The translations under genes and the position numbers were made by a program. The notes beneath the pieces are model-generated. The model searched no databases. It was not told where the DNA came from and saw nothing but the letters and a program-made list of their open reading frames with translations. A stretch of 35,258 bases of DNA, taken from Chloroflexota bacterium (GTDB lineage Bacteria; Chloroflexota; Anaerolineae; Promineifilales; Promineifilaceae). Within the stretch, counting starts at the first letter, position 1. Each line of letters opens with the position of its first letter. The stretch covers positions 1-35,258 of the forward strand of contig RFGV01000150.1 of the NCBI GenBank assembly GCA_003696605.1. Reading direction: 5' to 3'. Below, in pieces: positions 16,365 to 35,152 of the stretch.

Positions 16365-16378
16365 CCCCCCTAGGGGGG
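16365..16378. promoter_or_regulatory. CsoR-type operator
   Basis: CCCCCCTAGGGGGG is a perfect palindrome; the G-run continues two more bases. CsoR operators are G/C-tract dyads around a short AT centre. It lies 14 bp downstream of the csoR -10 box (minus strand), over the expected transcription start, so a bound repressor would block initiation. Confidence 0.85.
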
Positions 16379-16391
16379 GGATTTGTTGTTG

Positions 16392-21268: not shown

Positions 21269-21302
21269 AAAGGGTCGCTCTTATCTGGTGCGACCCTTTT
21301 TT
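21269..21302 (+). terminator. Intrinsic terminator upstream of prkA
   Basis: AAAGGGTCGC and GCGACCCTTT are perfect 10-bp arms with an 11-nt loop, and T continues to 21302. The T-run is best on the plus strand. It sits 40 bp before the prkA start codon with no gene upstream in that direction. Confidence 0.85.
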
Positions 21303-21341
21303 GTTTCTAACCTTACAAATACAAAAATAAGAGGTGTAAAG

Positions 21342-23381
21342 ATGGCAACAGGAGCCGCAATTTTAGAAAAAATTGAAAAAATCCAGGACTTAAGTGGATT
21401 CCGGGATTTGCATTGGGAGGGTAGTTTTGCCGAATATCTGGATATCGTTCGGGAAGATCCTCGTGTAGCCCGCTCCTCATTCCAACGTCTATACGACATG
21501 ATCGTATCGCATGGGCAAACGGAATACACCCGAAACCGGGAAAAGCTGATTCACTACCACTTCTTTGATGACCCGTTTGAAAACGGCAAGGATGCCGTCT
21601 TTGGTATTGATAAGCCGCTGATGGAACTGGTACAAATTTTCCGCTCAGCAGCACATCGGTACGGCACAGAAAAACGGGTTATCCTCTTGCACGGGCCAGT
21701 AGGAACAGCCAAAAGCACAATTGTACGATTGCTGAAAAAGGGTCTGGAAGCCTACTCACGCACAGAAAACGGCCGTCTTTATTCCTACTACTGGCAACTG
21801 GAAAACGGCGAACGCATGGACTGCCCCATGCACGAAGAACCACTCCATCTCATCCCCGAAGAATTCCGCCCCGCAGTCCTCGAAGAACTCAATCATGGTC
21901 GCAATGGGCTGGAACGCATCGTTATCGAAGGCGATCTTTGCCCCGTGTGCCGATTCATATTCAACGACCTGTTAGAAAAGCACAATGGCGACTGGCTCAA
22001 AGTAGTAGAGCACGTGCGGGTAAAACGCCTGTTACTCTCTGAAAAAGACAGAATAGGCATTGGCACATTCCAGCCAAAAGATGAAAAAAACCAGGACTCC
22101 ACAGAACTAACCGGTGACATCAACTATCGCAAAATTGCAGAATACGGCTCCGATTCAGACCCCCGCGCCTTCAACTTTGACGGCGAACTGAACATTGCCA
22201 ACCGGGGATTAGTGGAGTTTATTGAAATCCTTAAGCTAGATGTCGCCTTTTTGTACGATTTGTTGACTGCCTCGCAGGAACACAAAATCAAGCCCAAGAA
22301 ATTCGCCCACACAGATATTGACGAAGTTATTTTGGGGCACACAAACGAAGCAGAATACCGACGCCTGCTTAGCAATGAATACATGGAAGCATTGCGCGAC
22401 CGCACCATCAAGATTGATATTCCCTATAATGTCCGCTTTCAGGACGAAGTAAAAATTTACCAGCGGGATTTTAATGAAGAGCGAGTAGTCGGAAAACACA
22501 TCGCCCCCCATACACTGGAACTGGCTGCCTTTTGGGCAGTTTTAACCCGCCTGGAAGAGCCAAAACGAGCGGGGTTATCACTGGTGCAAAAATTACGCCT
22601 GTATGACGGCCGTTCTTTGCCCGGCTTCACCGAAGACACCGTCATCGAACTCCAGGCCGAAGCCAAAAACGAAGGCATGTTTGGCATTTCCCCACGTTAC
22701 ATCCAGGACAAAATCTCCAATGCCCTTGTCAAAGACCAAAGCCGCACCTGCCTCAACCCCTTCATGATCATGCGCGAACTGGAAACCGGCCTCAAACACC
22801 ACTCCCTCATCACCAGCGAAGAAGAACGCAAACGATACCGCGAACTCCTCTCCGTCGTCCGTGCCGAATATGACGAAATCGTCAAAAACGAAGTCCAACG
22901 CGCCATCACCGCCGATGAAGAAGCCATCAAACGATTGGCTGCCAATTACATTGACAACGTCAAAGCCTACACACAACGCCAGAAAGTCCGCAACCCATAC
23001 ACCGGCCAGGACGAACCACCCGACGAACGGCTGATGCGCTCCATCGAAGAAAAAATCGAAATTCCCGAAAGCCGCAAAGATGACTTTCGCCGAGAGATCA
23101 TGAACTACATTGGTGCCCTGGCCATAGAAGGCAAAAAATTCACCTGGGACTCTAATGAACGCCTGCGCCGTGCACTTGAACTCAAGTTATTCGAAGACCA
23201 AAAAGACTCTATCAAATTGACCAGCCTTGTTTCCAATGTCATTGATCAGGAAACACAGGAAAAAATCGAAGTGGTCAAGAGTCGCATGATAAAGAATATG
23301 GGGTATTGCAATGTCTGCGCGACAGATGTTCTGAACTATGTCGCCAGTATCTTTGCCCGGGGAGACACTCAGGAGCGTTAA
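21342..23381 (+). CDS. prkA: PrkA-family AAA+/serine protein kinase
   Basis: A 679-residue protein of the PrkA/YeaG family. The N-terminal PrkA AAA domain has the Walker [17 protein letters not shown], preceded by the family start [20 protein letters not shown]. The C-terminal part corresponds to the PrkA kinase-like domain. The length is close to that of YeaG. E. coli YeaG works with YeaH in responses to nutrient stress; in Bacillus PrkA affects sporulation. The start is ATG at 21342 with GAGGTG upstream. It is the first gene of a compact prkA-yhbH-spoVR operon. A terminator 40 bp upstream may limit its transcription. Confidence 0.95.
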
Positions 23382-23383
23382 CA

Positions 23384-24496
23384 ATGATCTACTTCAGCGT
23401 AGCCCATCGCATTGATCAGGATGCCGGTCGGTTTCGGCAAATTGTACGGGGGCAAGTACGACGCAATTTGCGCAAGTACATGTCCAACGGTGAACTAATC
23501 GGCCGTCAGGGAAAAGACCTGGTTAGCATTCCTGTGCCCCAAATCGAACTACCCCACTTCCGTTTTGGGCAAAAACAAATGGGAGGTGTTGGTCAGGGAG
23601 ATGGGGATGTTGGTACGCCGCTAGGTCCAGGCAATCCGGGCGATGGAAGTGGCGAAGCAGGCGATCAGCCAGGGCGGCACATTCTGGAAGTGGAAATGTC
23701 GCTGCAAGAGCTGGCCGAAATTTTGGGTGAGGAATTAGAGCTGCCCCGTATTCAGCCAAAAGGGAAACGAAATGTAGAAGGGGGAGTCGTCCGTTACACC
23801 GGTATTCGGCGAGTGGGACCGGAAAGTTTGCGGTCGTTTAAGCGGACGTATCGGGCAGCTCTGAAACGACAATTAGCAGCCGGTTTGTATAACCCGGAAC
23901 GGCCGATCGTCATTCCCATTCGAGATGACATTCGCTACCGCTCCTGGGAAGTACACCCTCGCCCCCAAAGCAACGCAGTTATCTTCTATATGATGGACGT
24001 CTCCGGCAGTATGACCCGAAATAAAAAAGAGTTGGTGCGTCTGACTGCATTTTGGATTGATACCTGGCTGCGCGCCAACTATAAAAATCTGGAAGTCCGT
24101 TACATTGTGCATGATGCCGCAGCCAAAGAGGTGGATGGTCATACTTTTTACCATTTGCGGGAGAGTGGCGGCACGCGCATTTCTTCGGCCTATCAGCTTT
24201 GCCGCAAGATTATGACGGAAGAGTATGATCCGGAAGACTGGAATTTGTATGCGTTTCACTTTTCGGATGGAGAGAATTTTGGGGGAAGTGATGATGAGTT
24301 GTGTCGGGAAATTTTGGAAGAGTGGTTGCTGCCTCGCGTGAATTTGTTTGGCTATGGACAAGTGCCCGGAGGATACGGCCGTATGTTCCTCGACACCATC
24401 AAGAAAATCGAAAACGAAAAACTTGCCTACGCCACCATCAAAAACAACGATGCTATTTACGACACCATCAAAACTTTTCTCGGTAAAGGACTGTGA
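23384..24496 (+). CDS. yhbH: YeaH/YhbH family (DUF444) von Willebrand A-domain protein
   Basis: A 370-residue DUF444 protein. The N-terminal third is basic with a Gly-rich stretch (MGGVGQGDGDVG). The C-terminal half is a von Willebrand A-like domain whose metal site DVSGSM (in FYMMDVSGSMTRNKKELV) fits the MIDAS pattern, followed by ESGGTRISSAYQ. It is the conserved partner of PrkA. The start is ATG at 23384 with AGGAGCG upstream, two bases after the prkA stop, so translation is probably coupled. A longer upstream frame inside prkA is rejected. Confidence 0.95.
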   Translation: MIYFSVAHRIDQDAGRFRQIVRGQVRRNLRKYMSNGELIGRQGKDLVSIPVPQIELPHFRFGQKQMGGVGQGDGDVGTPLGPGNPGDGSGEAGDQPGRHILEVEMSLQELAEILGEELELPRIQPKGKRNVEGGVVRYTGIRRVGPESLRSFKRTYRAALKRQLAAGLYNPERPIVIPIRDDIRYRSWEVHPRPQSNAVIFYMMDVSGSMTRNKKELVRLTAFWIDTWLRANYKNLEVRYIVHDAAAKEVDGHTFYHLRESGGTRISSAYQLCRKIMTEEYDPEDWNLYAFHFSDGENFGGSDDELCREILEEWLLPRVNLFGYGQVPGGYGRMFLDTIKKIENEKLAYATIKNNDAIYDTIKTFLGKGL

Positions 24497-24504
24497 GATT
24501 CACC

Positions 24505-25992
24505 ATGATTGCACCTGCCCTCCCTCCCGATCTGGCCGAATTACAGGCAGAAATTGAAGCCTACGCCCGTGAATATGGGTTGGATTTCCCTGAAATTCGA
24601 TACCAGATGCTCGATTACAAAACAATGAACCTCGTAGCCGCCTACGACGGATTTCCAACTCGTTATCCACACTGGCGCTTTGGCATGGAGTATGAACGGC
24701 TCTCCAAAAGCTACGCCTATGGCCTGCACCGTATTTATGAGATGGTCATCAATACCGATCCTTGCTATGCCTATTTGTTGGTCAGCAATTTGCGCGTTGA
24801 TCAAAAGTTGGTGATGGCTCATGTGTGTGGACATGCTGATTTTTTCAAAAACAATCTTTGGTTTGCCCACACCAACCGCAAGATGCTGGACGAAATGGCC
24901 AATCATGCAGCTCGGATTCGTTCGTATATTAATCGGTATGGACTAGAAGCCGTAGAGCAATTCCTGGATGCGTGCCTCTCGTTGGACAATTTGATAGATA
25001 TTCATGCGCCTGGAGTAAAGCGTCGCCCAGAAGTGGAAGATTCTCCCCCCGAAGAAATGACGGCTATTCCTAAACTCAAGGCCAAAGATTACATGGACCC
25101 TTTTATCAACCCACCCGAATATATCGCCGCTCAGCAACAAAAACTTCAGGCCGCCCGCGAACAGCGTAAACAGTTCCCTGAACAACCGGAGCGGGATGTC
25201 TTGTTGTTTCTTATGCATTACGCGCCGCTGGAAAACTGGCAACGTGACATTTTGGGTATTGTGCGCGAAGAAGCGTATTACTTTGCCCCGCAACGTCAGA
25301 CTAAAATCATGAATGAGGGTTGGGCGTCTTATTGGCACAGTACGATTATGACGCAGCGGGCTCTCAAGCCAGAAGAGTTGATCGACTATGCGGATCATCA
25401 TGCGGGGACGATTGCGGCTCATCCTGGTCGCCTGAATCCGTATCGCCTGGGACTGGAGTTGTTTCGGGATATTGAAGACAGGTGGAATCGAGGTGCGTTT
25501 GGTCCTGAATATGAGGCGTGTGATAGTCTGGAAGCTCGCCGTAACTGGGATCGTCAGCTTGGGCTGGGGCGGGAGAAAATATTTGAGGTGCGGCGCATTT
25601 ATAATGATGTGGGCTTTATTGATGCGTTTCTTACAGAAGATTTTGCCCGCGAACATAAGTTGTTTGCTTTTGCTTATAATGAGCGGCAAGAGCAGTATGA
25701 GATTTCTAGTCGGGATTTTCAGGAAATCAAGCGGAAGTTGCTTTTTCAGTTAACTAATTTTGGGCAGCCGATTATTGATGTGGTGGATGCGAATTATGAA
25801 AATCGGGGGGAGTTGTATCTGGTGCATCGGCATGAGGGGATTGATCTGGATGTTCCTTTTGCGGAAGCGACGCTGGAGAATTTGCATTTTATCTGGAATC
25901 GGCCTGTTCATCTGGAAACAGTGGTGCAGGATAGTGGTCGGGTGTTGTTTAGTTTTGGGCCAGATGGCCCACGACAACGGAAGCTGGATTGA
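24505..25992 (+). CDS. spoVR: SpoVR family protein (YcgB-like)
   Basis: About 495 residues, the normal family length. Hallmarks are HVCGHADFFKNN, the WQRDILGIVREEAYYF region, NEGWASYWHSTIM and HHAGTIAAHPGRLNPYRLGL. SpoVR affects spore cortex formation in Bacillus; its biochemical function is unknown. Outside spore-formers it nearly always accompanies PrkA and YhbH, and all three are adjacent here. The start could be ATG at 24505 or a GTG at 24493 overlapping the yhbH stop; neither has an ideal ribosome site. The gene lacks the dispersed ACGGCCGT palindrome, unlike most of the window. Confidence 0.95.
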   Translation: MIAPALPPDLAELQAEIEAYAREYGLDFPEIRYQMLDYKTMNLVAAYDGFPTRYPHWRFGMEYERLSKSYAYGLHRIYEMVINTDPCYAYLLVSNLRVDQKLVMAHVCGHADFFKNNLWFAHTNRKMLDEMANHAARIRSYINRYGLEAVEQFLDACLSLDNLIDIHAPGVKRRPEVEDSPPEEMTAIPKLKAKDYMDPFINPPEYIAAQQQKLQAAREQRKQFPEQPERDVLLFLMHYAPLENWQRDILGIVREEAYYFAPQRQTKIMNEGWASYWHSTIMTQRALKPEELIDYADHHAGTIAAHPGRLNPYRLGLELFRDIEDRWNRGAFGPEYEACDSLEARRNWDRQLGLGREKIFEVRRIYNDVGFIDAFLTEDFAREHKLFAFAYNERQEQYEISSRDFQEIKRKLLFQLTNFGQPIIDVVDANYENRGELYLVHRHEGIDLDVPFAEATLENLHFIWNRPVHLETVVQDSGRVLFSFGPDGPRQRKLD

Positions 25993-25994
25993 TG

Positions 25995-26028
25995 CAAAAA
26001 AGCCCCCTGCTTCTAAAAAGAGGGGGCT
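25995..26028 (-). terminator. Terminator of the minus-strand copper/cytochrome cluster
   Basis: AGCCCCCT and AGGGGGCT are perfect 8-bp arms. On the minus strand the stem is followed by TTTTTTGC, so it terminates the leftward gene cluster. On the plus strand no T-run follows, so spoVR benefits less. Confidence 0.82.
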
Positions 26029-26047: not shown

Positions 26048-26551
26048 TTATCGGCGGCGGGTAATGAAGAAAACGGCCGTACCGAACACCAGCAATCCCA
26101 ATCCACCCAAAATCAGCCAGTTCGCCGCATTATTAGAAGATGGCTCTGCTTCCTCGCCAACGCTCTCCGCTTCCATATGCACATCTACATCCACATCCCC
26201 AATACGGCCAAACAAGCGGGCTGAATAGGGGCCATCGGAAAGCATAAATGGCTCAGTCACATAATCGCCGGCCATATCACCTGGCTGAAGGGAAAATTGT
26301 TTGACTTCACCGTTGTGTGTTACCTCAGCCTGCAAACTATTCTCCAGACCAGAAACAGGGTCATTCCCTTCCACAATGCGAAAAACCAGCGCATTTTCCG
26401 CACCGGCTACCGGCGGCTCGTTCTGCCAGCCTAAAATAATGGTGTATGGGTCAACTTCGACAAACCCGTGTGCATAGACGGGCAAAACGGCCGTTATCAG
26501 CCCAGCCAACAAAACCAACATCAATGTTCCTGCCTTTACAAATTTCATCAT
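26048..26551 (-). CDS. Exported membrane-anchored single-domain protein (YtkA/FixH-like), possible copper protein
   Basis: A 167-residue protein with a signal peptide ending VYA, a single beta domain starting HGFVEVDPYTIILGW and a C-terminal membrane anchor (WLILGGLGLLVFGTAVFF) capped by RRR. If cleaved after A27, the mature protein begins with His28, the arrangement of a CopC-type histidine brace. It is paralogous to the protein at 29528-30121: both share VxPYxIxxGWxxEPPxxGxxNALV and ARLFGxIxDVxVDV-type blocks. The ribosome site AAAGGAG precedes tandem ATGs at 26551 and 26548. It is the last gene of the minus-strand cluster. The metal role is inferred. Confidence 0.72.
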   Translation of the reverse strand: MMKFVKAGTLMLVLLAGLITAVLPVYAHGFVEVDPYTIILGWQNEPPVAGAENALVFRIVEGNDPVSGLENSLQAEVTHNGEVKQFSLQPGDMAGDYVTEPFMLSDGPYSARLFGRIGDVDVDVHMEAESVGEEAEPSSNNAANWLILGGLGLLVFGTAVFFITRRR

Positions 26552-26602
26552 CTAACTCCTTTCAACTTCAAATTTTCAGAGCAATACGGCCATAAAACAA
26601 AC

Positions 26603-28930
26603 CTATGGGGATGTTTGTGCACTCAGGCGGCGCACATAATTCACCAGATGCCACGTCTCTTCCTTTGTGAACTTATCACCAAAAGCAGGCATAGCCGAAT
26701 CCGGAATTCCCTCTCGAATCCAGTAATACAAGTCACCATCTGGATGTGTTGCAGTATGACCAGCCGCAAAATCTGCTGGTGGCGGGTTCAAGGTCAACGC
26801 TGCTGGACCATCTCCGTGCCCTTCTGGGCCATGACAAACCACACAGTTTTCCTCATATAATGCTTTACCAATAGCAACAGACTCGGCATCCGGCAGAATG
26901 GGATTTGTCAAAAACTTGGTGGGCGTAAAATCGTTGGTAAAGAAATCTATTGCCTGAAGTGCACCTAGCCAGAAAACCAGCAAACTAATTAACAAAAGTG
27001 GCGCCAGTTGCCATTCATTACGAGCGGCTCGCATAGATAAAATCCCCCACCCAATAGCAAAAAGAATCAACAAAATACCAGTTCCGCCACCACCTGCCAG
27101 GGTCATAAATCGGGCAATGCTTTCCAACGGGTTGTTACGCTGTTCATTAGATCGGATGCTTCCACCCAATCCAGCCTCCAGCCGAAATGGCGCAAATGCA
27201 TCAAATTTATCAGGTCGTCGGATTGCAATTTCTACCTGCCAATTACCAATTAGACTAATATAACTTCCTTCCAATTGGTAAATGCCATTTCCAACAGGCT
27301 CAGCCACTGCCTCCGAAGCGCCAATGGACTGATCCAAAAAGGTAAAGCGAAAAGACAGTTCACGGACATCAGTGACAGGTTGGCCATTTTCATCAGTCAA
27401 ACGTACTTCAAAAGTATTTGGACCGGTAAGTGCTGGTTCTATGGTTAACGTGACATCCAAATCATCAGCCCTGGTGGTTACCGTTGTTTTACCAGGCGCA
27501 TCAGCCAGCAAAGGGGCTTCAACAGCTCGTTGCAAATCCGTCAGAATACCCACCGATAGAAGCACAAGAACCGCAAACAGTGCTTCTCCGCGTGCCAGCC
27601 AGGTAAAACGGTGTATCAGTTTTTGGGTTTGTTCGGTTTCTGGCTGTTCATAGGTAGCATACAGACGCGGCTTGATAACAAGTAAATTAATGGCAGCAAT
27701 TCCAAATGCAGGCAACGCTAGCATGATTTTGCCCAACAAAACAAGCCCATAAGCTGTGCCAACCAATTTTGTCCAGCTATTGACGTGTTGCCAGGCAAGA
27801 TACCCCCCGCTAGCCAATAGAAAGCCAACGGCCGTTGCGGCCATACCGGAAAAGTCAAGCAACAAGTTAAGAGTCAGCCAGGAACGTTCTGCCGAATCGA
27901 GTTCACGTGCCAACCAGAGGGAAATAGCAAGATAGATTAATCCGCCTACCCACAAACTGGCAGCCAGGGTGTGGACAAAATCAACGGTGATGGCCACGGC
28001 TACATTTTCTGACAAGGCAGCACTGTGGCTCACAAAAGAGATGGATACAGCTAATAGCATACTTGTCAGCAAGCCAGCCCACCACCCCCAACCACGGATT
28101 GGGTATGCATCTGCATGTCGTTTGACAGACGGCCGTTTCCTCGCAAAAACCACTTGCCAGACCACGCCACCCAACAATAAAAGCCCCACACGACCAAGCC
28201 AGATACGACCGAACTGTGTCTTTGCCCAGATACCAAAATTGCCGGCAAAAAGAGAATACTGATTATTCTGATCCACCAAAACAAGTATGAGGTTACCAGC
28301 CAACACCACTAACCCACCTATGATCAATTTCGACGTAACCTGAACCAGCCTCCAGTCCACATCCTGCTCATGGCGGGACATTTTAATACGTCGATAACCA
28401 GGGACCCACACCAGTAACCGGAAAGCATACCCACCTGCCAACACCGTTGTTGCCACAACCGCCAGCGAACGTGCCGCTGCACTCAGGGGAGAAAGTCTGG
28501 CAGAAACTGTCGCATCACCAGATGTAGCTGCCAGTTCTTCTACCCCTACACCAAATGAAAATGTACCACTGGTGGTATGTCCATCCACAGTTGAAAGAAC
28601 CTGCCAGCTTACCAGATATGTACCATCGCTGATTTCGGGTAAATCAATAGCCAGGGTACGTCCTTCTGTGTCAATCACCTGAACAGGACTGGCTGGAATC
28701 ACATCTCCAGTTTGGGCAAGCAGGGTGATTCGACTGAGTTCGGGGACAACCGGCTCATTAAAACGAATAATTATTTGCTCTGGCGGCAAATCAAGAATGG
28801 CATTAGGAAGGGGATCAGAAATAACAGGGACAGCATGGGCGAATACACGGGAAACGGCCGTTCCCATCCCCAGCAACACTAACAACACCCATAAAACTCG
28901 TATTTTCATACCCAATCGTTTAATTCTCAT
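26603..28930 (-). CDS. CopC-CopD-YtkA-like-cytochrome c fusion protein
   Basis: A 775-residue multidomain protein. A signal peptide ends VFA, and the mature N-terminus is His32 of a CopC domain (HAVPVISDPLPNA). Its second copper motif, VDGHTTSGTFSF near residue 115, supplies the Asp and His of the Cu(II) site. A CopD-like region of eight helices (about 150-470) follows, then a YtkA/FixH-like beta domain (about 485-590), two more helices, and a C-terminal cytochrome c domain with CVVCH at 696-700 and an SAMPAF methionine. CopC-CopD fusions take up or traffic copper; a heme domain on the same chain is unusual. The start is ATG at 28930 (alternative 28909). Confidence 0.9.
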   Translation of the reverse strand: MRIKRLGMKIRVLWVLLVLLGMGTAVSRVFAHAVPVISDPLPNAILDLPPEQIIIRFNEPVVPELSRITLLAQTGDVIPASPVQVIDTEGRTLAIDLPEISDGTYLVSWQVLSTVDGHTTSGTFSFGVGVEELAATSGDATVSARLSPLSAAARSLAVVATTVLAGGYAFRLLVWVPGYRRIKMSRHEQDVDWRLVQVTSKLIIGGLVVLAGNLILVLVDQNNQYSLFAGNFGIWAKTQFGRIWLGRVGLLLLGGVVWQVVFARKRPSVKRHADAYPIRGWGWWAGLLTSMLLAVSISFVSHSAALSENVAVAITVDFVHTLAASLWVGGLIYLAISLWLARELDSAERSWLTLNLLLDFSGMAATAVGFLLASGGYLAWQHVNSWTKLVGTAYGLVLLGKIMLALPAFGIAAINLLVIKPRLYATYEQPETEQTQKLIHRFTWLARGEALFAVLVLLSVGILTDLQRAVEAPLLADAPGKTTVTTRADDLDVTLTIEPALTGPNTFEVRLTDENGQPVTDVRELSFRFTFLDQSIGASEAVAEPVGNGIYQLEGSYISLIGNWQVEIAIRRPDKFDAFAPFRLEAGLGGSIRSNEQRNNPLESIARFMTLAGGGGTGILLILFAIGWGILSMRAARNEWQLAPLLLISLLVFWLGALQAIDFFTNDFTPTKFLTNPILPDAESVAIGKALYEENCVVCHGPEGHGDGPAALTLNPPPADFAAGHTATHPDGDLYYWIREGIPDSAMPAFGDKFTKEETWHLVNYVRRLSAQTSP

Positions 28931-28949
28931 ATGCCCTCACAACATCCAT

Positions 28950-28986
28950 GCGGGGCGCGGCCTGGTTATACCAGACCACACCCCGC
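28950..28986 (-). other. Very stable 17-bp intercistronic hairpin
   Basis: As minus-strand RNA, two 17-nt arms pair completely (14 Watson-Crick and three G-U pairs) around a 3-nt AUA loop. It lies 14 nt after the stop of the lipoprotein gene and about 20 nt before the start of the copCD fusion. It has no T-run, so it is more likely an mRNA processing or stability element, or a regulator of copCD translation. Confidence 0.75.
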
Positions 28987-29000
28987 TACACATTATTAGA

Positions 29001-29501
29001 TTATTCTTCTACTGTAATGTGAATACTATCCCCTTCTTCCAATTCCTCATGGGAAGGAATCGACATATAAACGGCAATTTCATGTTCACCTGGAGCAAGC
29101 CCAGTCAGAGGCTGATCGGTATTGCCACCCATCACCATACCCCAGGACGAACCATCTACATAGACATGCCAATGGTAACCTTCCTGTGTCAGATCAAAGT
29201 TTTCTACCTCCACTTCTACTACAACTTGTTCGCCAGCCTTAAACACAGCCCCATCCTCTGGTGATATAATCCGAATAACCGCACCTTCGTTGGGAACACG
29301 TTTGACTTCTTCGTGGCTATGTTCCATATCGTGTTCCATATCATGCTCCATGTCATTGCTATGCTCCATGTCCATGCTTTCATTGGTTACAGTTGGTGTT
29401 TCTGCACCTTCTTCATTTGAACCGGAAGCTGTACATGCGACAAGCGCAAAAATCACCACAAACAATATCATCCACATCCTTGTTTTCTTCCAACCAGTCA
29501 T
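29001..29501 (-). CDS. Met/His-rich lipoprotein with Ig-like domain
   Basis: A 166-residue lipoprotein: the signal helix MWMILFVVIFALVAC has the lipobox LVAC. After an acidic linker comes a Met/His array with three MEHD/MEHS-type repeats (SMDMEHSNDMEHDMEHDMEH, 20 residues), a typical soft-metal (Cu) binding segment. The following 90 residues form a beta domain (ISPEDGAVFKAGEQVVVEVE, YHWHVYVDG, LTGLAPGEHEIAVYM), resembling DUF4399-like domains with an HWH pattern. The start is ATG at 29501 with AAAGGAG nine bases upstream. It is part of the minus-strand cluster, just before the copCD fusion. A role as a surface copper buffer is inferred. Confidence 0.82.
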   Translation of the reverse strand: MTGWKKTRMWMILFVVIFALVACTASGSNEEGAETPTVTNESMDMEHSNDMEHDMEHDMEHSHEEVKRVPNEGAVIRIISPEDGAVFKAGEQVVVEVEVENFDLTQEGYHWHVYVDGSSWGMVMGGNTDQPLTGLAPGEHEIAVYMSIPSHEELEEGDSIHITVEE

Positions 29502-29527
29502 CTTCTGTACTCCTTTCTCCTGTTTAA

Positions 29528-30121
29528 TTATGATTTTCTTTGTTGCCAAAAGGCCAAAACAGCCATCAACAATCCAGCTAACCCAATCCCTAAACCAGCA
29601 AGAGCTAACAAACGCGCAGAAGCCAGTTCAGCTTGCAATTCTTCCTGTATCGTTTGTAACTCTTTTTGCAATTCAATAGGGTCTGGCTGTGGCTGCGGAA
29701 AATGTAATCGATCAGCCGGAAAGACTTCTTCCGGTTCAACAACAACATCTACTTCTACATCGTTGATTGCCCCAAAGAGCCGAATCCCATATTGTCCACG
29801 AACAGTGGGGAAAATATCGGCCGTGTACACACCTGGTTCGGCTGTAGGTACCAGGTTTACACGAAACTGACGCCCCCCATAAATCAGTTCCGCATCCAGA
29901 GTTGCCTCTACACCGGTTACTGGCTGTTCATCTTGAGTAATTTCAATGACGAGGGCGTTTCGCTCGCCAATAATAGGTGGCTCTTGAGCCCAACCAACAA
30001 CAATAGCATAGGGGCCTACTTCTGTACGGGTATGGGCGTGTGCCAATTGAACGGCCGTTGTCACCAAAACAACCAGAAATACCACCCATCCGGTTTTCAA
30101 AATATAACGACGCAACATCAT
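29528..30121 (-). CDS. Exported YtkA/FixH-like protein with coiled coil, paralogue of 26048-26551
   Basis: A 197-residue protein with a signal peptide ending AHA and a mature start at His30 (HTRTEVGPYAIVVGW), the same layout as the protein at 26048-26551. The beta domain spans to about residue 130. A Pro/Glu segment, a predicted coiled coil (LQKELQTIQEELQAELA) and a C-terminal membrane anchor follow, the last ending WQQRKS. The predicted N-terminal histidine could form a copper histidine brace, though this is not demonstrated for this family. The start is ATG at 30121 (or 30118) with GGGAGG upstream. It is 26 bp upstream of the lipoprotein gene in the same direction. Confidence 0.74.
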   Translation of the reverse strand: MMLRRYILKTGWVVFLVVLVTTAVQLAHAHTRTEVGPYAIVVGWAQEPPIIGERNALVIEITQDEQPVTGVEATLDAELIYGGRQFRVNLVPTAEPGVYTADIFPTVRGQYGIRLFGAINDVEVDVVVEPEEVFPADRLHFPQPQPDPIELQKELQTIQEELQAELASARLLALAGLGIGLAGLLMAVLAFWQQRKS

Positions 30122-30217
30122 ACAATCCTCCCGTCATCAGGAAACAGACACAAACACTCAACTGGCAATATCCAGCTTGAGCGAAGAAACCAATTAACAA
30201 TTAACTTGTGGAGAAAA

Positions 30218-30610
30218 TTACAGAGGAGGCGGCGTTGGCGGAAGCAAATAAACAAGCCGTGCCTGATACCAGGCCAGCCATAAGGGGAAAATCAGGGCCA
30301 TTACACCAACTAACAAAATAATTCGGGTGTGCCAAAGAGGGTATTCCAAAAAGGCAAAAATGCCAGAAACGGCCGTTTCCGACGGCGACTCATTCCCACC
30401 AGCCACCAGACCAATTCCGGCCTCATGTCCATCATGAGAATATCCCTGGTCTGTATGAGCGTGAGCATGATGGTGCGCATCGTGTGGCACACCCGGCAAA
30501 ACCGAGAGCACACAACCACATACATACACACTCAGTGGTGTTCCCAGCACAGCCAGCCAGGTTATCACCACCAAAAACAGCCTAGAAAACCGCCGTCGGA
30601 AACGTCTCAT
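30218..30610 (-). CDS. Small His-rich membrane protein
   Basis: About 130 residues. After a basic N-terminus (MRRFRRRFSR) there is one membrane helix, LFLVVITWLAVLGTPLSVYV, then CGC, then a His-rich loop, HDAHHHAHAHTDQGYSHDGH (20 residues), and a second helix, IILLVGVMALIFPLWLAWY. The tail is PPTPPPL. The His loop should bind divalent metals (Cu, Zn, Ni or Co); specificity cannot be read from sequence. The start is taken as ATG at 30610, 10 nt after the upstream stop, without a clear ribosome site; translational coupling is likely. No named family is recognised. Confidence 0.62.
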   Translation of the reverse strand: MRRFRRRFSRLFLVVITWLAVLGTPLSVYVCGCVLSVLPGVPHDAHHHAHAHTDQGYSHDGHEAGIGLVAGGNESPSETAVSGIFAFLEYPLWHTRIILLVGVMALIFPLWLAWYQARLVYLLPPTPPPL

Positions 30611-30620
30611 TATCGAATCA

Positions 30621-31202
30621 TTACTGAATAGGTGTACCGACGCCACCACTGCACGCGCCACCACGTTCCGGAGTGGTTGGGCCTTGCCGATACCGCTCAA
30701 TAAACTCCTGCACACGGCCGTCTTGTGCTGACTCCAGTTCCAATTGCACGCCCCACGCAGTCAACACCACCGGACTACGCTGATTTGGGTACGGGCTGAG
30801 AATCAGGTAGGGTTCGCCACGCACCAAATCTTGTAAATACGCCACATCCTCTTCTGGCAAATCCGGCTGGTAGGTAATCCAGACCGCACCATGCTCTAGC
30901 GAATGAACTGCATTTTCCGGGCGTACTGGCTCTGTGTAAATGCCACAGTTCAGCCACCGGCTATTGTGAACACCACCTGGAGGAGGCAACTCGCCATATT
31001 CAATTTCCACTGTATCATCATGGCCTCGTGGCGGACGCGGATAGATGATAACGCCTGGAATGGCCGGAGGCTCACGTAAACTGAAATAAAGTAACAAGCC
31101 CAATCCGGCCACAGCCACCACAACAATGGCGCCTATCAGGAAATTGCGTGTGGAATTGTCTGTTGTTTCTGCTGGTTTTCGTCGTGGTTTGACTTTTGTC
31201 AT
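30621..31202 (-). CDS. DUF3105 membrane-anchored protein (copy 2)
   Basis: A 193-residue protein: basic N-terminus, one membrane helix (FLIGAIVVVAVAGLGLLLYF), then an exported DUF3105 domain. Key motifs are GGVHNSRWLNCGIYTEPV and AVHSLEHGAVWITYQPDLP; the Cys and the H-x3-H pair are invariant between the two copies here and could bind metal. It ends with PERGGACSGGVGTPIQ. The domain function is unknown. It is about 60 percent identical by eye to the neighbouring gene at 31312-31920, so this is a tandem duplication. The start is ATG at 31202 with GGAGAG upstream; it is 10 bp ahead of the His-rich membrane protein gene. Confidence 0.85.
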   Translation of the reverse strand: MTKVKPRRKPAETTDNSTRNFLIGAIVVVAVAGLGLLLYFSLREPPAIPGVIIYPRPPRGHDDTVEIEYGELPPPGGVHNSRWLNCGIYTEPVRPENAVHSLEHGAVWITYQPDLPEEDVAYLQDLVRGEPYLILSPYPNQRSPVVLTAWGVQLELESAQDGRVQEFIERYRQGPTTPERGGACSGGVGTPIQ

Positions 31203-31243
31203 ATGTCTCTCCAATGATTACTGTTTTGGTAGAACGGCCGTTG

Positions 31244-31270
31244 ATTATAACGAATCCCCATCGAGCCCAA
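31244..31270 (-). promoter_or_regulatory. Possible internal promoter before the second DUF3105 gene
   Basis: On the minus strand TTGGGC (31270-31265), a short 15-bp spacer and a perfect TATAAT (31249-31244) lie about 40 bp before the start codon at 31202. The spacer is shorter than ideal. Confidence 0.35.
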
Positions 31271-31311
31271 AGGAGCTAACCAAAAGGACACGGCCGTTTC
31301 TTAAGCGAACA

Positions 31312-31920
31312 TTAAGGCAACGGTGCCCCGACACCACCAGAACACGGCGCCCCTCGTTCCGGCGCACGCGTTCCCCGATACCGGGCAATAAACTGGTCAA
31401 TCCGCTCATCCGTAGCCGATTCAACCGTTAGCTGGGCATCCCACACCGTCAGGGCAATTGGCGCCGACTGGTCAGGATACGGGCTGAGAATCAAATAAGA
31501 CTCCCCGCGCACCTTATCCTGCAAGAGAGCCACCTGATCTGCGGGCAAATCTGGATGGTAGGTAATCCAGACCGCACCATGTTCCATAGAATGAATGGCA
31601 TTTTCTGCTGGAACTGGCTCTGTGTAAATGCCACAATTTAACCATTGCGGCGAATGTACCCCACCCATAGGCGGTAATCCACCCGTCGGGTAGGTCACAC
31701 TGGCATCATGCTGGTTGGGCGGCGCAGCCTCACTAAAAACCACACCTTCAACCTCTGGTTCATTGGCCCGAATAATGATAAAGGCTACCAGGGCAATAAC
31801 CACCAGGGCAATTGGACCCCAGATTTTAAGCATTTGCTGGCGGCGGGCACGTTCTCTTTCTAGTCGCCGCAATTCTCGTTTGCTCATTTTGCGGTCCTGT
31901 TGGTTCGATTTTTTGGACAC
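31312..31920 (-). CDS. DUF3105 membrane-anchored protein (copy 1)
   Basis: A 202-residue protein with a very basic cytoplasmic start (KRELRRLERERARRQQ), one membrane helix (IWGPIALVVIALVAFIII) and an exported DUF3105 domain with GGVHSPQWLNCGIYTEPV and AIHSMEHGAVWITYHPDLP. The C-terminus PERGAPCSGGVGAPLP mirrors copy 2. The start is GTG at 31920, eight bases after GGAGGAG; an ATG at 31887 would remove 11 residues. It is probably the first gene of the minus-strand cluster, behind a promoter at 31976-32004 and a dyad at 31947-31962. Confidence 0.86.
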   Translation of the reverse strand: MSKKSNQQDRKMSKRELRRLERERARRQQMLKIWGPIALVVIALVAFIIIRANEPEVEGVVFSEAAPPNQHDASVTYPTGGLPPMGGVHSPQWLNCGIYTEPVPAENAIHSMEHGAVWITYHPDLPADQVALLQDKVRGESYLILSPYPDQSAPIALTVWDAQLTVESATDERIDQFIARYRGTRAPERGAPCSGGVGAPLP

Positions 31921-31946
31921 AGTTTCTCCTCCAAAATTTTGTTTAT

Positions 31947-31962
31947 GCTACAGGTATGTAGC
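31947..31962. promoter_or_regulatory. Dyad GCTACA-N4-TGTAGC in the leader of the minus-strand cluster
   Basis: Perfect 6-bp arms with a 4-bp centre lie between the -10 box and the start codon of the first cluster gene. The TACA/TGTA arms recall CopY/BlaI-type operators, but those usually have two central bases, so the match is only suggestive. Confidence 0.45.
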
Positions 31963-31975
31963 AATATTGGCAGGT

Positions 31976-32004
31976 ATTATCTCTGTGGAAAGGAAATTCT
32001 TCAA
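31976..32004 (-). promoter_or_regulatory. Promoter of the minus-strand copper/cytochrome cluster
   Basis: On the minus strand TTGAAG (32004-31999), a 17-bp spacer and GATAAT (31981-31976) lie about 55 bp before the GTG start at 31920. Confidence 0.65.
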
Positions 32005-34315: not shown

Positions 34316-35014
34316 TTAATTACTTTCAGACAAAGTACGCACGTAGCTAATAACCTGCCAAATCTGCTCTTCCGAAAGCGCACCCTTCCAGGCTGGCATC
34401 GCAGAATTAAACGGCTCCATTGCCCCACCCTCATTCACGCGCCAGAAGAGATAATCATCTGTCGTCATGCTCATCATCATACTATCTGCCAGATTCGCCG
34501 GTTTCGGATCCAGGGTAGCCGCTGCCGGGCCATCACCCTTACCTTCTGTCCCGTGGCAAGCCACGCAATAAGTCTGGAAAATCTGTTCACCAGCAGCGAT
34601 AGCATCAGCATCCCCGGCAAACGGATTTGTCTTGCCTGCATATTCTTCTGGCACTTCTGCGTGCATATGGTCCATTCCACCCATATGATCATCGCCATCG
34701 CTATGATCCATACCTTCCATATCACCATGTTCTGCTTCTTCGGAATGGCTATCCATATGGTCATCAGCATGGTCAGCCATATGTTCATCAGTGCTATCTG
34801 CGGCGTGATCATCCGCGTGATCTTCTGCATGTGCATCGGCATGCTCATCTACTGTATGATCATCTTCGTGTTCAGCACTCACAGCCTGTTCTGCATCACC
34901 AGCCAGCGCACCACTCATTTCTACTTCAGCCGTCTGGTTTGCACCACATGCAGCAAGAAACAAAACAGTTACTACGCTTAAAACGAATATTGTCAAAATC
35001 CGGCCTAACTTCAT
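34316..35014 (-). CDS. Cytochrome c lipoprotein with His/Asp/Met-rich N-terminal region
   Basis: A 232-residue lipoprotein: signal FVLSVVTVLFLAAC (lipobox LAAC). Residues 40-125 are a low-complexity stretch of DEHADAH, DHADDHAADSTDEHM and HSDGDDHMGGMDHMHA units, with many His, Asp and Met, likely to bind several metal ions. The C-terminal 100 residues are a class I cytochrome c with CVACH and an axial methionine in SAMPAW. It shares the pattern GKGDGPAAATLDPKPANLAD with the heme domain of the copCD fusion. The start is ATG at 35014 with GAGGAGG upstream. Two tandem dyads lie upstream, beyond which ends a probable response-regulator gene. Confidence 0.9.
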   Translation of the reverse strand: MKLGRILTIFVLSVVTVLFLAACGANQTAEVEMSGALAGDAEQAVSAEHEDDHTVDEHADAHAEDHADDHAADSTDEHMADHADDHMDSHSEEAEHGDMEGMDHSDGDDHMGGMDHMHAEVPEEYAGKTNPFAGDADAIAAGEQIFQTYCVACHGTEGKGDGPAAATLDPKPANLADSMMMSMTTDDYLFWRVNEGGAMEPFNSAMPAWKGALSEEQIWQVISYVRTLSESN

Positions 35015-35116
35015 TGTCAGTCGCCTCCTCGAAATTAAATAATGGATAATATTCCTATGAACTAAGGATAAAAGAACGCCAATTTCTAAGGTAGTGCAAT
35101 CCTTCACATTTACACA

Positions 35117-35152
35117 GGGAAACATGCCCCGTTCACGCGGGACAAATGTCCC
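35117..35152. promoter_or_regulatory. Two tandem 14-bp dyad boxes (DosR-box-like)
   Basis: GGGAAACATGCCCC (35117-35130) and GGGACAAATGTCCC (35139-35152) match at 11 of 14 positions. They start 22 bp apart, that is two helical turns. The second is a perfect GGGACA/TGTCCC dyad. The GGGAC...GTCCC form resembles sites of NarL/LuxR-type regulators such as DosR. They lie about 100-140 bp before the cytochrome c lipoprotein start and directly after a probable LuxR-type gene. Confidence 0.6.

Follow-up and report, generated by a model that had tools for sequence, protein, structure and literature searches.

What is the role of seven adjacent genes, g1-g7, which occupy the minus strand from 31920 to 26048 on contig RFGV01000150.1 of a Chloroflexota bacterium? 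The preliminary description of this DNA (the window, that is, the whole analyzed stretch of 35,258 nt) had listed seven one-strand genes of a surface copper/heme system, and all seven open reading frames are present at these positions. A copper role of the cluster is strongly supported. With slightly better than even confidence, we interpret it as an envelope module for copper acquisition and delivery, centered on a Chloroflexota equivalent of the YcnI/YcnJ pair of Bacillus subtilis. The genes, with improved start sites for the second DUF3105 gene (31202), the small membrane protein (30610), and the lipoprotein (29501), are as follows.

31312-31920, minus strand: g1, DUF3105 protein (PF11303, E 5e-44) with a single N-terminal transmembrane (TM) segment at 32-50; GTG start, ribosome-binding site GGAGGAG
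30621-31202, minus strand: g2, DUF3105 protein (PF11303, E 1.7e-46) with a single N-terminal TM segment, 53% identical to g1
30218-30610, minus strand: g3, small protein with two predicted TM segments and a His-rich loop, aligned with its counterparts in loci L042 and L087
29528-30121, minus strand: g4, exported protein with an Ig-like domain, His30 as the predicted mature N-terminus, and a C-terminal TM segment
29001-29501, minus strand: g5, lipoprotein (lipobox LVAC) with a Met/His/Asp/Glu-rich linker and an HWH/MxMG domain, as read from the sequence
26603-28930, minus strand: g6, fusion of CopC, CopD (8 TM segments by count), YtkA, two TM segments, and cytochrome c (CVVCH), domains by Pfam
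26048-26551, minus strand: g7, shorter paralog of g4 with an N-terminal His directly after VYA and a C-terminal TM segment

The g6 protein combines, in a single chain and in this order, the CopC (PF04234, 32-128), CopD (PF05425, 359-463), and YtkA (PF13115, 488-568, E 2e-7) domains, all above the Pfam cut-off, and the CVVCH cytochrome c at the C-terminus is also confirmed by Pfam. Thus, the CopC, CopD, and cytochrome c domains claimed for this protein all hold. The preliminary description named all other parts of the seven proteins correctly and overlooked only the YtkA domain between CopD and cytochrome c; of its heme component, the fused cytochrome c stands and nothing further. Alignment to the YcnJ structure 9c14 places the Cu(II) ligands of CopC at H32, D116, and H118, H32 being the predicted first mature residue after VFA. 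In CopD, H302 and H320 are invariant in six sequences and are candidate equivalents of the conserved CopD histidine H295 of YcnJ. The predicted topology comprises a signal peptide, eight TM segments in CopD, an external YtkA domain, two further TM segments, and an external cytochrome c, and is consistent with the acquisition and delivery mechanism proposed below. A second cytochrome c gene (34316-35125, minus strand), whose product shares 44% identity with the g6 cytochrome domain, lies 2.4 kb upstream of the cluster, past a membrane protein gene on the plus strand.

The exported proteins g4 and g7 are paralogs (38% identity, E 4e-29), as had been suggested, and both carry a predicted C-terminal TM segment. 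In 20/20 proteins of the g4 family, from the family of the window to distant classes, a histidine directly follows an AxA-type signal cleavage site, these sites being read from the sequence motif; Glu47 of g4 is also invariant. Thus g4, g7, and the CopC domain of g6 all have His at the predicted mature N-terminus. Such a histidine is a Cu(II) ligand in CopC and YcnI (PMC8424229, PMC12362106), and in YcnI the Cu(II) site is a mono-histidine brace of His27 and Glu50 (PMC8424229); g4 and g7 are predicted to expose a Cu(II) site at this residue. The YcnI family itself (DUF1775, PF07987) has no match in the host genome or in 29 relatives, and g4 and g7 fall outside it. We therefore suggest that g4 takes the YcnI slot, and g4 and g7 may function like YcnI, by analogy, without belonging to its family.

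The relationships of g4 lie elsewhere. It matches the Pfam YtkA domain PF13115 at E 0.003 and 18.5 bits, under the gathering score of 25.9; a weak YtkA match is also seen in 5/10 homologs, and hhalign relates g4 to the YtkA domain of g6 (probability 74%, E 2.7e-5). For a model of its ectodomain (28-133), built from three sequences with a pLDDT of 75.5 overall and about 88 over the domain, the best fold match is Helicobacter pylori CrdA (VIA-align Z 11.0, 2.4 A over 99 residues; Foldseek E 2e-4), followed by one DUF4426 protein and then by copper-binding FetP, P19, and FtrA. No conserved Met was found in the g4 ectodomain, and the CrdA-type Met-rich copper motif is absent from it. Our search revealed no solved structure related by sequence to g4 or DUF3105. 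A 176-residue exported protein encoded in the caa3 oxidase operon was considered as a g4 homolog and rejected (no Pfam match; hhalign probability 2%).

The core g4-g6 pair recurs across the phylum, and its arrangement is beyond chance. When g6 was searched against 301 Chloroflexota genomes, 45 near-full-length matches including cytochrome c were obtained outside the window, in 43 genomes, and a g4 profile has matches in 81 of the 301. When the positions in the two match tables were compared, 61 of the 89 g4-family places outside the window proved to have a same-strand CopC-CopD match immediately downstream, no more than 1.5 kb away, and 33/45 full-length g6-type fusions adjoin a g4-type gene; given contig breaks, these counts are lower bounds. 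Within the family to which the window belongs, a clear g4 homolog is present in 7/18 genomes, always next to a g6-type gene. The full order DUF3105-DUF3105-small TM protein-g4-g5-g6 is found in L042 and L087. In L043-L046, g4 and g6 occur without DUF3105; in two of these loci, L044 and L045, the order is g4-g5-DsbA-g6, and in L044 a VKOR gene also lies between g5 and g6. Homologs of g5 are present in L042, L044, L045, and L087. Lack of conservation in related genomes had been named as grounds for discarding the copper cluster; the neighborhood recurs in relatives, and these grounds fall away. The suggested His loop of g3, which has no Pfam family over the cut-off, is not retained in the alignment with either positional homolog (L042 or L087), and we rejected the idea that g3 is a metal carrier with a conserved His loop.

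Both g1 and g2 score over the PF11303 gathering threshold, in agreement with the original assignment to DUF3105. In 58 sequences of this family H79, C86, H100, E103, H104, E179, and C184 are invariant, and H61 is present in 98%. C86 is missing in one Rubrobacter plasmid copy. Structural comparison of the AF2 model of g2 (pLDDT 95.7) gave top rows that are all thioredoxin-like, with none above Z 7.0, where values under 8 may reflect a mere common arrangement; Foldseek gave no match with E below 0.001. A thioredoxin-like fold is thus a tentative, model-based assignment. DUF3105 lacks the CxxxC plus His motif of Sco; its only conserved cysteines, C86 and C184, lie 98 residues apart.

Gene neighborhoods were counted in a sample of 80 named loci fetched by DUF3105 alone. 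A CopM-type DUF305 gene lies within 300 bp of DUF3105 in 47/80 loci, within 2 kb in 49/80, and at 5-7 kb in none; some copper family occurs within 5 kb in 56/80. The L088 locus reads csoR-copZ-copA-DUF3105, and its DUF3105 gene starts about 24 bases past copA. DUF3105 occurs together with Sco, PCuAC, DUF305, and a P-type ATPase in L050 and L098/L100; the L050 locus additionally has CopC and a YtkA-like protein, and in L050/L051 DUF3105 lies within 3 kb of YtkA-like and CopC genes. On plasmids of Arthrobacter, Deinococcus, and Rubrobacter, it is found beside or near DUF305 among metal ATPases and ArsR-type regulators. Four Anaerolineae loci (L104, L107, L109, and L126) have a DsbA-like gene directly upstream of DUF3105. 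Judged by gene neighborhood, the DUF3105 family is tied to copper. The pair in the cluster is predicted to consist of membrane-anchored accessory proteins that bind copper or shield a copper-binding thiol. A literature search found no published report on DUF3105, an absence that is no proof of novelty.

A respiratory destination of the copper is plausible. COX2 occurs twice in the host genome (G000; estimated 100% complete, 705 contigs), both times with the CuA motif intact: one copy belongs to a caa3-type operon (C207) that also holds CtaG and a SURF1-like gene, and the other to a ba3-type operon (C607). No Sco or PCuAC is detectable in this genome; the lone weak Sco match (E 3e-4) is an AhpC/TSA-type thioredoxin with a far better fit to PF00578. 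Among the 18 genomes of the family, all have COX2, 16 have Sco, and 15 have PCuAC; the host has neither of the latter two. At low copper, CuA assembly generally requires Sco together with PCuAC or a CtaK-type protein (PMC9145763), and the YtkA-type domains of the cluster are candidate substitutes for Sco/PCuAC. Together with the YcnJ precedent (PMC13344008) and the conservation in relatives, these observations support the original proposal of an envelope copper system that perhaps serves a respiratory enzyme. In a relative, G303, a block Rrf2-Sco-Sco-PCuAC precedes the ba3 COX2 (C308, L186); this block is absent from the host ba3 locus (C607 2031-2552, L182) between the same flanking genes.

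The proposed mechanism is as follows. The g4 and g7 proteins would capture Cu(II) outside the membrane at their mature N-terminal histidines, and the CopC domain of g6 would receive it from them; CopD would then move the copper into the membrane or through it. Delivery to the CuA center of the cytochrome oxidases may fall to the YtkA domain of g6, together with g4 and g7, and the fused cytochrome c could either give an electron for the reduction of Cu(II) to Cu(I) or dock g6 to the oxidase chain. Copper buffering at the membrane would be the task of g3 and the Met/His lipoprotein g5, and the DUF3105 pair, with its invariant His/Cys/Glu set, would provide membrane-anchored accessories. The first steps are proposed by homology to tested proteins; metal binding, the direction of flow, the roles of cytochrome c and DUF3105, and the oxidase target are what we infer. 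In its most far-reaching form, g6 would be an electron-coupled copper importer/reductase, g1-g7 the route by which CuA of two oxidases is metallated without Sco/PCuAC, and DUF3105 a new copper family; we consider this combination improbable.

The transcription signals around the cluster and the genes of the cytosolic copper system of the window are listed below.

31976-32004, minus strand: proposed sigma70 promoter of the cluster, weak
31946-31963, no strand: perfect 7+7 inverted repeat TGCTACA-N4-TGTAGCA in the g1 leader, between the proposed -10 box and the g1 start
25995-26028, minus strand: intrinsic terminator after g7 (-18.6 kcal/mol, z -3.5, U tract)
16347-16069, minus direction: csoR
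16044-15823, minus direction: copZ
15742-13250, minus direction: copA

The terminator is sound, and the promoter that had been placed upstream of g1 is unsupported: it matches the consensus at 9/12 positions, and a scan for such sites gave 13 in the real sequence vs. 17.7 in shuffled sequence, which is no better than chance. The palindrome in the g1 leader is possibly an operator; as a conserved operator it was rejected, as it is not found in relatives. The csoR-copZ-copA genes lie about 9.7 kb from the cluster. A CsoR-type operator, CCCCCC-TA-GGGGGGGG, is located at 16365-16380, downstream of a perfect consensus promoter (16420-16392) and ahead of csoR, and a similar site precedes csoR in L042. 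We looked for a CsoR-type operator at the cluster promoter and found none in the window or in L042. In L042, the complete cluster immediately follows csoR-copZ-copA; the intervening DNA contains a terminator-like hairpin but lacks a CsoR palindrome. Hence, the claimed separateness from the CsoR-CopZ-CopA system is retained at the promoter level and is lost in the gene order of relatives, given copA-cluster in L042 and copA-DUF3105 in L088.

Several further observations concern the surroundings. Genes of the PrkA kinase, DUF444, and SpoVR stand in a row at 21288-25992 (plus strand) and form a widespread yeaGH-spoVR type operon. A second copper cluster of the host (G000:C141 38000-57000, L185) contains CopC, CopC-CopD, and multicopper oxidase genes. 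The palindrome ACGGCCGT is highly iterated in the manner of cyanobacterial HIP1, with 51 copies in 35 kb vs. 0.5 expected from base composition; AACGGCCGTT has 27 copies in the window vs. 0.03 expected. Iteration of ACGGCCGT is also seen in contigs C207, C305, C607, and C141 of G000 and in the relatives L042, L043, L044, and L087, and is absent from L045, L091, and L050.

Could the cluster serve copper resistance, sequestering or oxidizing excess copper outside the membrane in cooperation with CopA export, like CopC/PcoC and CopM-type proteins? We regard this as a tentative alternative, clearly short of even odds. The placement of copA in L042 and L088 agrees with it, as do the close DUF305 neighbors of DUF3105 and the plasmid copies among metal ATPases; the His/Met-rich g5 and g3 are suited to sequestration, and CrdA is a resistance determinant (PMC9182242). 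Against resistance, the cluster promoter has no CsoR operator, Pfam detects no multicopper oxidase CopA/PcoA or CopB domain among the seven genes, the CopC-fused CopD of YcnJ is tied to copper import (PMC13344008), and the phylum-wide g4-g6 core is usually free of the resistance genes tested for. Comparably doubtful is a division into two adjacent units with separate roles, a DUF3105-g3 copper-stress unit and a YcnJ-like g4-g7 unit, which for g4-g7 overlaps and is compatible with acquisition. Outside three genomes the two parts are usually apart, and L043-L046 have only g4-g6; however, the order is the same in the window, L042, and L087, and the L050/L051 loci bring DUF3105 close to YtkA-like and CopC genes. 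Very unlikely, in our opinion, is a redox or disulfide system in which DUF3105 with DsbA, VKOR, and cytochrome c maintains envelope thiols, such as the CuA cysteines, with copper being secondary. The thioredoxin-like arrangement of DUF3105 with two invariant cysteines and the DsbA and VKOR genes near DUF3105 or between g5 and g6 point in this direction; yet the Z-scores may reflect a common arrangement only, Foldseek gave nothing below 0.001, DUF3105 has no CxxC, and copper families dominate the neighborhoods.

Several observations weigh against acquisition and delivery. DUF3105 is mostly far from g4-g6 within the phylum, and outside the phylum it neighbors genes for resistance to copper or metals, CopM/DUF305 being a resistance protein that confers copper tolerance (PMC4335983). 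CrdA binds copper via methionines, which g4 lacks. No copper-starvation regulator such as YcnK was identified. With 6 Sco and 5 PCuAC matches, G303 carries the cluster as well, and replacement of PCuAC by the cluster across the family was rejected, the association being not significant (Fisher p 0.53); nor does the distribution show such a replacement for Sco. Still, the YcnJ domain order, the Cu(II) ligands, the pairing with g4, and the N-terminal His lead us to favor acquisition or delivery over resistance, a choice that the sequence does not decide.

Among known systems, the closest parallel is provided by the B. subtilis ycnKJI operon. Like YcnJ, g6 has the order CopC, CopD, YtkA and the Cu(II) ligands of CopC; like YcnI (for its anchor, see PMC12362106), the neighboring g4 is membrane-anchored by a C-terminal TM segment and has an N-terminal His. 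The proposed link to heme-copper oxidases has its parallel as well: YcnJ supports both Qox and Cta when copper is limiting, and none of its three domains is dispensable for Cta (PMC13344008). In contrast to YcnJ, g6 adds two TM segments and cytochrome c at the C-terminus; the partner is YtkA/CrdA-like and not DUF1775; and the DUF3105 pair, g3, g5, and g7 are extra, with no YcnK identified. H. pylori CrdA has the Ig-like fold closest to the g4 ectodomain, but with about 10% identity, a Met-rich site devoid of His (PMC9182242), and membership in an efflux system, whereas g4 has the invariant N-terminal His. The CuA assembly protein CtaK/YtkA of B. subtilis resembles the YtkA domain of g6 and, weakly, g4; CtaK is a lipoprotein (PMC13344008, PMC9145763), whereas g4 and g7 are TM-anchored and under the Pfam cut-off. 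The DUF3105-DUF305 pairs of Actinomycetota and Deinococcota share the family and the nearby copper or metal genes, whereas the host lacks DUF305 and has DUF3105 duplicated beside YcnJ-like genes. A targeted literature search found no report of a CopC-CopD-cytochrome c fusion, which is no proof of novelty. The supply of copper to respiratory oxidases in bacteria is poorly understood, and YcnI/YcnJ is the only pair that we found studied in such a layout. The host is a naturally occurring example of a bacterium with CuA oxidases in which neither Sco nor PCuAC is detectable, and DUF3105 is tied to copper. The phylum-wide variant of the pair, in which cytochrome c is fused and the N-terminal-His partner is a different one, provides a test of the coupling between copper import and reduction.

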